Source: Psychroflexus curvus | GTDB lineage: Bacteria > Bacteroidota > Bacteroidia > Flavobacteriales > Flavobacteriaceae | Direction of reading: 5' to 3' | Length of the DNA: 64,000 nt | Assembly: GCF_020164585.1 (NCBI RefSeq) | Contig: NZ_JAIQZF010000005.1 | Location: forward strand, 62,001-126,000 | Shown: one piece after another, positions 7,484 to 8,012 of the stretch | Position numbering within the stretch: position 1 is the first letter of the stretch | Layout of the letters: each line of letters begins with the position of its first letter | The notes under the pieces: model-generated | The model's input: only the letters and a program-made list of their open reading frames with translations | Databases searched by the model: none | Told to the model about the DNA's origin: nothing | Position numbers and translations under genes: made by a program

Positions 7484-7556
7484 TAGCGGGGACTGGACTC
7501 GAACCAGTGACCTTCGGGTTATGAGCCCGACGAGCTACCTGCTGCTCTACCCCGCG
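7484..7556 (-). tRNA. Initiator tRNA-fMet (anticodon CAU)
   Basis: The 73-base minus-strand sequence folds as a full cloverleaf: acceptor CGCGGGG / CCCCGCT, D-arm with GAGC/GCTC and GG in the loop, anticodon stem TCGGG/CCCGA with loop CTCATAA (anticodon CAT), and T-arm with loop TTCGAGT. Three stacked G-C pairs below the anticodon loop and an unpaired first position (C1 opposite U72) are hallmarks of the bacterial initiator, so this is tRNA-fMet rather than elongator Met. CCA is not encoded (CTA follows). It is the most distal member of the tandem array at 7601-8012 and has no recognisable promoter of its own between it and the next copy. Confidence 0.95.
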
Positions 7557-7600
7557 ATATATGTTTATAATGTGTTTTAGAACTTTCTTTAATATTAACT

Positions 7601-7664
7601 CTCGAACTTGTGTCCGCCTTGGGCGGATATGAGCCCGACGAGCTACCTGCTGCTCTACCCCGCG
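7601..7664 (-). pseudogene. Defective tRNA-fMet copy A (normal D-loop, palindrome in anticodon arm)
   Basis: From the 5' end (7664) the copy matches the intact tRNA-fMet through acceptor 5' strand, D-arm and anticodon CAT (7629). The 3' anticodon strand and variable loop are then replaced by the palindrome TCCGCCTTGGGCGGA (7613-7627). A T-loop remnant GTTCGAG follows and the sequence then diverges, with no 3' acceptor strand. It cannot form a functional tRNA. Confidence 0.85.
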
Positions 7665-7708
7665 ATATATGTTTACAATATTTTTTAGAACTTCCTTTAA
7701 TCTTAACT

Positions 7709-7784
7709 CTCAAACCTGTATCCGCCTCAGGCGGATATGAGCCCGACGAGCTACTCCCGATATCTATCGGGACTCTACCCCGCG
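7709..7784 (-). pseudogene. Defective tRNA-fMet copy B (palindromes in D-loop and anticodon arm)
   Basis: The 5' acceptor strand (7784) and the outer D-arm match tRNA-fMet. The D-loop bases CAGCAG are replaced by TCCCGATAGATATCGGGA (7755-7772), after which GTAGCTCGTCGGGCTCAT resumes exactly. A second palindrome, of the TCCGCC/GGCGGA type, occupies 7720-7736, and a weak T-loop remnant (GGTTTGAG) follows. Confidence 0.85.
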
Positions 7785-7828
7785 ATATATGTTTACAATA
7801 TTTTTTAGAACTTCCTTTAATCTTAACT

Positions 7829-7892
7829 CTCAAACCTGTGTCCGCCTCAGGCGGATATGAGCCCGACGAGCTACCTGCTGCTCTACCCCGCG
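7829..7892 (-). pseudogene. Defective tRNA-fMet copy C (normal D-loop, palindrome in anticodon arm)
   Basis: Same structure as copy A, with an intact 5' half from 7892 to the anticodon at 7857, the GGCGGA-type palindrome at 7841-7855 and a GGTTTGAG T-loop remnant. The spacer between copies is nearly identical to that beside copy B, which indicates recent or concerted duplication. Confidence 0.85.
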
Positions 7893-7936
7893 ATATATGT
7901 TTACAATATTTTTTAGAACTTCCTTTAATCTTAACT

Positions 7937-8012
7937 CTCGAACCTGTATCCGCCTCAGGCGGATATGAGCCCAACGAGCTACTCCCGATATCTATCGGGA
8001 CTCTACCCCGTG
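7937..8012 (-). pseudogene. Defective tRNA-fMet copy D (palindromes in D-loop and anticodon arm)
   Basis: Same structure as copy B, with the D-loop palindrome at 7983-8000 and the anticodon-arm palindrome at 7948-7964. It has a C-to-T change in the 5' strand (CACGGGG on the minus strand) and a change in the anticodon stem (CCCAACG on the plus strand). Its T-loop remnant GGTTCGAG matches the intact gene better than those of B and C. It is the copy closest to the promoter. Confidence 0.85.

Follow-up and report, generated by a model that had tools for sequence, protein, structure and literature searches.

Small GIY-YIG nuclease genes are located beside tRNA genes across the phylum Bacteroidota, usually with part of that tRNA copied on the other side of the nuclease gene, and this association of GIY-YIG genes with half-tRNAs is a stronger and newer finding than the origin that we can propose for the array of broken tRNA genes in the 64-kb stretch of the Psychroflexus curvus genome analysed here (64,000 nucleotides, hereafter the window). 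A literature search of open-licence PMC papers found no title or abstract describing the association. For the array itself, in which four fragments precede the intact initiator tRNA-fMet gene, we give even weight for and against the proposal that they make up the upstream side of a tRNA-fMet locus that was split and duplicated, which was produced by repeated tRNA-targeted duplication linked to GIY-YIG genes.

The association was observed in a sample selected by GIY-YIG sequence alone, for which a GIY-YIG protein served as query against 394 genomes of the phylum; a match at 1e-12 was found in 68 of them. In 59 of these 68 genomes an intact tRNA gene is located no more than 500 nt from a GIY-YIG ORF, with 13 isotypes represented (including the P. 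curvus genome), and the chance bound for such proximity is about 1.5% per gene. As for the nine genomes with no tRNA nearby, one (L255) is the split-off array of P. curvus, seven have a contig end at most 423 nt from the ORF, and L315, where no tRNA was found in 2 kb on either side of the ORF, is a true negative. At each of the 60 near loci, among which one genome is represented by two sets, the nuclease gene and the tRNA are on the same strand. A partial copy of the same tRNA across the GIY-YIG gene was significant in 49 of 58 usable flanks; the other nine had no significant tRNA partner, and one further flank was too short. When the tRNA is upstream of the GIY-YIG gene the partner is a 3' part (30 of 33), and when it is downstream the partner is a 5' part (15 of 16); this dependence on the side of the tRNA is highly significant (Fisher 8e-9), and a reversed-tRNA control gave an equally high score in 1 of 49 cases. 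The exceptions, three of the 33 upstream-tRNA loci and one of the 16 downstream-tRNA loci, are L273 (with a score of only 7), L301, L318 and L275, the last of which has complete tRNA-Phe copies on both sides of the GIY-YIG gene and is a full duplicate. With a looser similarity cut-off, a tRNA was found at just 19 of 30 relatives' GIY-YIG loci. A search of the phylum for tRNAs, intended to test polarity, scored few partial copies among the matches listed, and its 30 loci alone were used.

The Bacteroidota proteins, of about 83 aa, are a bare catalytic domain matching the Pfam family GIY-YIG (PF01541) at E values from 8e-14 to 6e-16, and residues Y4, Y15, R25 and E62, which we take to be the catalytic-type residues of the domain, are conserved at 94-98% among 124 distinct sequences. 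The usable pairs give dN/dS values indicating purifying selection (0.031/0.209; 0.142/2.96; 0.171/1.58), the remaining pairs being near saturation and the G006 pairs being out of register and excluded. Relationships of the GIY-YIG sequences follow tRNA isotype more than host family: isotype takes 17 changes on the tree (34.6 when shuffled) and host family 31 (40.7 when shuffled), on a tree of 76 columns in which 34 of 56 inner branches are unresolved and host family is likewise clustered. Carriage of the nuclease by phages or plasmids is not supported, with no match of the protein query in a phage collection and three weak plasmid matches. A DNA query matched 246 phage records, none covering 80% of the query, and those among the matches listed agree with the tRNA-length end or with short pieces.

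In the window, an intact tRNA-fMet gene was confirmed to stand behind four broken copies, as an earlier note on this DNA had described (Table 1). The copies start at 7664, 7784, 7892 and 8012 and lie 5' of the intact gene with start-to-start spacings of 108, 120, 108 and 120 nt, and the 228-nt double unit of the array repeats at 95% identity. Each copy runs from tRNA position 1 to about 36, where a 15-nt palindrome replaces some ten bases of the variable loop and the 3' arm of the anticodon; the tRNA sequence then resumes with the 5' strand of the T-arm and extends into the T-loop as far as about position 59. Positions 60-74, including the 3' acceptor strand, are absent from all four. The description of the copies as keeping the 5' half and losing the 3' acceptor strand thus stands, except that none of them ends at the anticodon. 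Both palindromes reported in the note were recovered: TCCGCCNNNGGCGGA occupies the anticodon arm of all four copies and no other site in the 64-kb window (0.01 expected from shuffles), and TCCCGATANNTATCGGGA occupies the D-loop of alternate copies, those starting at 7784 and 8012, with no third site in the window.

Table 1. Positions of the tRNA-fMet array and neighbouring features in the window.
Feature	Position	Strand	Remark
Intact initiator tRNA-fMet (CAT)	7483..7556	-	tRNA call, 64.7 bits
Broken copy 1, closest to intact gene: tRNA 1-59 with anticodon-arm palindrome	7601..7664	-	
Broken copy 2, additionally D-loop palindrome	7709..7784	-	
Broken copy 3	7829..7892	-	
Broken copy 4, closest to promoter, additionally D-loop palindrome	7937..8012	-	
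AT-rich spacers, 44 nt	7557-7600, 7665-7708, 7785-7828, 7893-7936		
Anticodon-arm palindromes, copies 1-4	7613..7627, 7721..7735, 7841..7855, 7949..7963	.	pattern scan of window
D-loop palindromes, copies 2 and 4	7755..7772, 7983..8000	.	pattern scan of window
Promoter-like TATATTTG, TAnnTTTG	8049..8056	-	sole such motif between tRNA and 8110
Terminator-like inverted repeat then T run, behind tRNA	7431..7467	-	
Tyrosine recombinase (Phage_integrase) of island at tRNA 3' end	6067..7455	-	mechanical ORF, true start probably further in

A covariance model run on each copy bore out their broken status, since none of them gave a tRNA score even at E <= 1 and the intact gene alone scored; with this result and the missing acceptor stem, the suggestion that the fragments serve as RNase P decoys is not supported. 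In the P. curvus genome 34 tRNAs were detected, and the 30 loci checked include three CAT anticodons, one of which is of the initiator type. The tRNA-fMet at 7483-7556, which has initiator features, looks like the sole initiator of the genome on the basis of these 30 of 34 tRNAs. Since 108 and 120 are both divisible by three, the two strands of the array remain open as ORFs (window 7519-8028 on the minus strand, 169 aa, and 7610-8083 on the plus strand, 157 aa), which are likely to be annotated wrongly as proteins. Elsewhere in the window, an ordinary S4-Flavobacteria ribosomal protein leader (Rfam RF03141) is found at 42907-42939. Draft assemblies are known to collapse or expand repeats, and many related arrays stop at contig ends, but an assembly artefact is extremely unlikely here: the array is inside a 320-kb contig, one to seven copies are found across independent species, and a congener assembled as a single contig (G010) has seven copies, so that the array is not an artefact in kind.

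The consensus of the Bacteroidetes -7 promoter motif is TAnnTTTG, and the sole such motif up to position 8110 (at 8056-8049) stands before broken copy 4; a search of the array's spacers for the motif found none. In same-genus genomes lacking the copies the motif precedes the tRNA by 18-46 nt (G023, 27 nt; G006, 99 nt), and in those with copies it stands 5' of the copies (read by eye in G010). Because the sole motif comes before the first copy, the spacers have none, and relatives that lack the copies carry it at 18-46 nt or about 80 nt from the tRNA, the suggestion in the earlier note that the fragments form a 5' leader is supported, and the four copies should be transcribed as the 5' leader of tRNA-fMet. 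The 1.57-kb upstream flank matches the loci of 13 relatives; in 10 of the 13 the match extends to 7 nt or less from the end of the flank on the tRNA side, and nine of these 10 relatives have no broken copy; to judge from the motifs, the array probably lies inside the transcription unit of a conserved locus. The spacer was also considered as a copy of the promoter leader and this was rejected, the agreement being limited to the last ~12 nt.

A selected regulatory leader, in which hairpin-rich fragments control the transcription, processing or stability of pre-tRNA-fMet, is in our judgment improbable. It is consistent with the placing of the fragments between the promoter motif and the tRNA, with the folding of the 484-nt leader, which is far better than that of shuffles (z -7), and with a distant locus (L276) that has a hairpin of different palindrome sequence at the same site, but any palindromic sequence that is repeated can be expected to fold stably, the D-loop inserts are not the same from one species to another, 18 of the 25 same-genus genomes have no copies, and the copy number ranges from 1 to 7. 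As a separate observation, in seven genomes of the same family (L065, L070, L150, L152, L153, L156 and L158) about 80 nt separate the promoter motif from fMet, and the additional leader has a small hairpin with ATG in or near the loop and with stem letters that vary by genome, which may represent a conserved leader RNA or a relic of older date.

A GIY-YIG ORF was sought in the window at 7483-8012 and none was found; the fMet-linked nuclease genes of P. curvus are on another contig (C34), and we therefore class the array as associated remnants and not as an element. A self-search of the genome found further pieces of tRNA-fMet. At positions 6889-9830 of C34 (L009) there are a perfect 44-nt tRNA 3' half, a terminator-like hairpin and eight GIY-YIG ORFs, one of which has an internal TAG. 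The array is built of units of about 364 nt, in which each GIY-YIG ORF is followed by a tRNA-fMet part from about position 20, and these parts have the palindrome at the same anticodon-arm site as the window copies. Just one of the eight tRNA parts continues without interruption to the tRNA 3' end; the rest have a further break, which in five of them is an exact second palindrome. The genome has 29 sites of the palindrome in total, of which 4 belong to the window array, 13 to the C34 array and 12 to places with no relation to tRNA, and a reversed-pattern control gave 0. Broken 5' parts are upstream of the intact gene, GIY-YIG genes and broken 3' parts are downstream, in P. curvus on C34 beyond the 3' half at the island end, and the palindrome is at the same tRNA site in both. 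The two arrays, on contigs not joined in the assembly, seem to be one locus, composed of 5' parts, the intact gene, and GIY-YIG genes with 3' parts, that was split when an island inserted into the intact gene; we infer this single-locus origin.

The attachment copies of such islands, in P. curvus and in other genomes, are the 44-nt tRNA 3' half from the anticodon loop onward. The perfect 3' half at C34 6889-6932 marks an island end, and the one at C31:36910-36953, as well as several in relatives, are island attachment sites. Behind the C34 array, the flank matches the one that follows the attachment site of G024 (86.5% over 1.8 kb), as expected, and another part of the downstream flank of C34 matches G001 on the island side. 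A 91-nt stretch covering the 3' end of the tRNA and the beginning of the integrase region is found both at 7400-7490 of the window and at C31:21188-21278 (99%); taken with the 3' halves at C31:36910 and C34:6889, this repeat points to islands stacked at tRNA-fMet. The integrase gene is directly behind the tRNA, and islands use tRNA-fMet in several relatives, which favours the suggestion in the earlier note that the fragments are decoy or landing sites for the neighbouring integrase; this role is very unlikely and is contradicted, because the attachment copies correspond to the tRNA 3' half from the anticodon loop, which is replaced or absent in all four broken copies.

Two further tRNA genes of P. 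curvus have comparable surroundings. At tRNA-Arg acg (L038, contig C23), three 5' parts with GC-rich palindromes are upstream of the intact gene and each is followed by a GIY-YIG frame, one of the three frames having a stop, and at tRNA-Ser tga (L037, contig C30), repeated short 3' ends with terminators and one GIY-YIG gene are behind the intact gene.

When related genomes were searched for the same locus, upstream broken copies were found in seven of the 25 same-genus genomes with an intact fMet gene, in numbers of 4, 7, 2, 1, 1, 1 and 1. In G010 and G026 the order of 5' part(s), intact gene, GIY-YIG gene and 3' part is present on a single contig, and the copies of P. planctonicus are common to it and G012. 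A GIY-YIG gene is behind fMet in four of seven congeners with conserved upstream flanks, whose downstream flanks differ; in a pair from another genus (L333 and L335) both flanks are common to the two. The empty-site comparison is only partly clean, with upstream flanks kept and downstream flanks mostly not conserved because islands use the same spot. In other Bacteroidota (L061, L063, L064, L238, L239, L247, L251 and L252) tRNA-fMet genes are present as tandem intact copies, numbering 2 to 5, with spacers that are short and either AT-rich or hairpin.

A scan of 84,980 species genomes with a pattern of the anticodon arm plus palindrome gave 49 stretches, belonging to Bacteroidota, Balneolia, a Kryptoniota MAG, two contigs of one unclassified bacterium, and one unrelated Omnitrophota match; L102 among them has an unrelated tRNA-Thr context and was dropped. 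Thirty of the 49 stretches hold an intact fMet gene, with an upstream copy in 13, a downstream copy in 20 and both in 3. In these 30 loci the 5' parts are found upstream only and the 3' parts downstream only, where a downstream copy of L081 that passes the loose 5' test reads as a 3' part. A GIY-YIG gene is present between the intact fMet and the 3' part in 16 of the 20 loci with a downstream copy, and in L072, as well as in L272 from a separate set, it is between a 5' part and the intact gene. Breakpoints were collected from 96 distinct partial copies (37 upstream and 59 downstream). The upstream copies end in the T-loop (34 of 37 at tRNA position 56-64) and mostly start at 1-5 (33 of 37), and the downstream copies start in the D-loop or anticodon stem (51 of 59 at 15-30) and mostly reach the 3' end (46 of 59); the choice of the 49 loci by the palindrome pattern constrains these downstream starts and not the upstream T-loop ends.

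The regularity of these breakpoints bears on plain decay, under which tandem fMet duplicates became pseudogenes that gathered dispersed palindromes, unequal crossing-over shifted their number, and no nuclease took part. Random loss should not put 34 of 37 copy ends in the T-loop, should not confine 5' parts to the upstream and 3' parts to the downstream side, and should not place the palindrome at the same tRNA site in both kinds of broken copies. On the other hand, six Flavobacterium-like loci of one set have intact tandem fMet genes with AT-rich spacers of 25-37 nt, free of GIY-YIG genes and of degeneration, and intact tandem copies are also found in other members of the order. Broken copies with no GIY-YIG gene nearby are present in G008, G013, L091, L103 and L242, the palindrome is dispersed elsewhere in the genome, and the 228-nt double unit fits ordinary tandem amplification. 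In relatives, upstream copies are modestly associated with GIY-YIG genes (Fisher p 0.024 as counted and 0.002 with our adjustments), and in the phylum GIY-YIG sample just 2 of the 22 intact fMet genes are preceded by a broken copy. At other tRNAs with GIY-YIG genes, the upstream parts end mostly near 21-23 and not at 59, so that the two kinds of upstream copy may differ in origin. In view of the copies having no nuclease, the 2 of 22, the p value of 0.024, the intact tandems and the ends at 21-23, plain decay, which we consider possible and lean against, has to be taken seriously as an alternative for the upstream array, and would have to be even with a real GIY-YIG system.

Under the preferred reading, GIY-YIG-linked duplication at the tRNA gene, a small free-standing GIY-YIG nuclease would cut the tRNA gene, and a nuclease gene flanked by tRNA parts would serve as the repair template, by which one intact tRNA would be restored. 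The displaced part, a 5' part upstream or a 3' part downstream, would stay and then act as a homology arm, and the copy number could rise by unequal recombination, as the 95% identical 228-nt double unit would allow. The palindromes may stop the remnants from folding, or from being cut again, as a tRNA. The fragments would be transcribed as the 5' leader of pre-tRNA-fMet and the leader would be removed by RNase P, and little or no function of the fragments for the cell would be expected. Cutting and homing by the Bacteroidota GIY-YIG proteins are proposed by analogy with the phage enzyme SegB, and because the window copies have no nuclease gene and upstream copies are rare beside GIY-YIG genes, the link of the window array to GIY-YIG genes is indirect.

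An element carrying a whole spare tRNA was considered and dropped; since many loci have a 3' part and no upstream part, a replacement half is simpler than a spare tRNA. For the phylum as a whole we tentatively propose, with somewhat less than even confidence, that Bacteroidota have minimal selfish elements inside tRNA genes, each composed of a bare GIY-YIG gene of an isotype-loyal clade, with complementary tRNA parts as homology arms, palindromes that mark and protect the break, and the missing half brought by each insertion, and that the window array is a stacked left arm of such elements. As each insertion would bring the missing half, even an essential single-copy initiator tRNA could be colonised. 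If this is true, a selfish gene can be housed in essential single-copy genes without splicing by means of the replacement half that it carries, and a common annotation puzzle, namely GIY-YIG orphans and tRNA-like debris at Bacteroidota tRNA genes, would be explained.

Several known systems have parts of this organization. The rtT repeats of E. coli tyrT are tandem repeats containing a piece of the adjacent tRNA, with 3' ends downstream; the tRNA-Ser locus of P. curvus looks alike in having a tRNA piece in tandem repeats, whereas the window array differs by its palindromic 5' parts, which rtT lacks. REP elements and RAYT transposases link short dispersed palindromes to a small nuclease, but the enzyme family is another one, and the palindromes of P. 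curvus are mostly in tRNA remnants. Integrative islands, which are large and use tyrosine recombinases, insert at a tRNA and restore its 3' half, and the likeness is that one tRNA half is replaced and the other displaced; the Bacteroidota loci differ in having a nuclease gene of 250 nt or none and several breakpoints. Bonocora and Shub in 2001 reportedly described a group I intron with an encoded homing endonuclease in cyanobacterial tRNA-fMet; that intron splices out, whereas no intron is seen at the Bacteroidota loci and the gene would be kept through the carried duplicate part.

SegB of T-even phages is a free-standing GIY-YIG homing endonuclease that cuts inside tRNA genes, spreads by homing, and is required for tandem amplification of the tRNA segment (PMC13096335; PMC2988022). 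Retained half-tRNAs, palindromes and isotype-specific clades do not appear in those passages on SegB, and SegB belongs to phages whereas the Bacteroidota genes are chromosomal. The likeness is a GIY-YIG nuclease gene beside tRNA genes, as in the Bacteroidota loci. By our own reading, the SegB motif given there, RAWTSGAAC, is the reverse complement of a T-loop-like sequence; the fMet T-loop fits it at 8 of 9 positions, and the T-loop is where the window copies end. By this analogy, phage SegB is the known system closest in behaviour to the Bacteroidota GIY-YIG system, which, if the proposal is true, would be its chromosomal counterpart.
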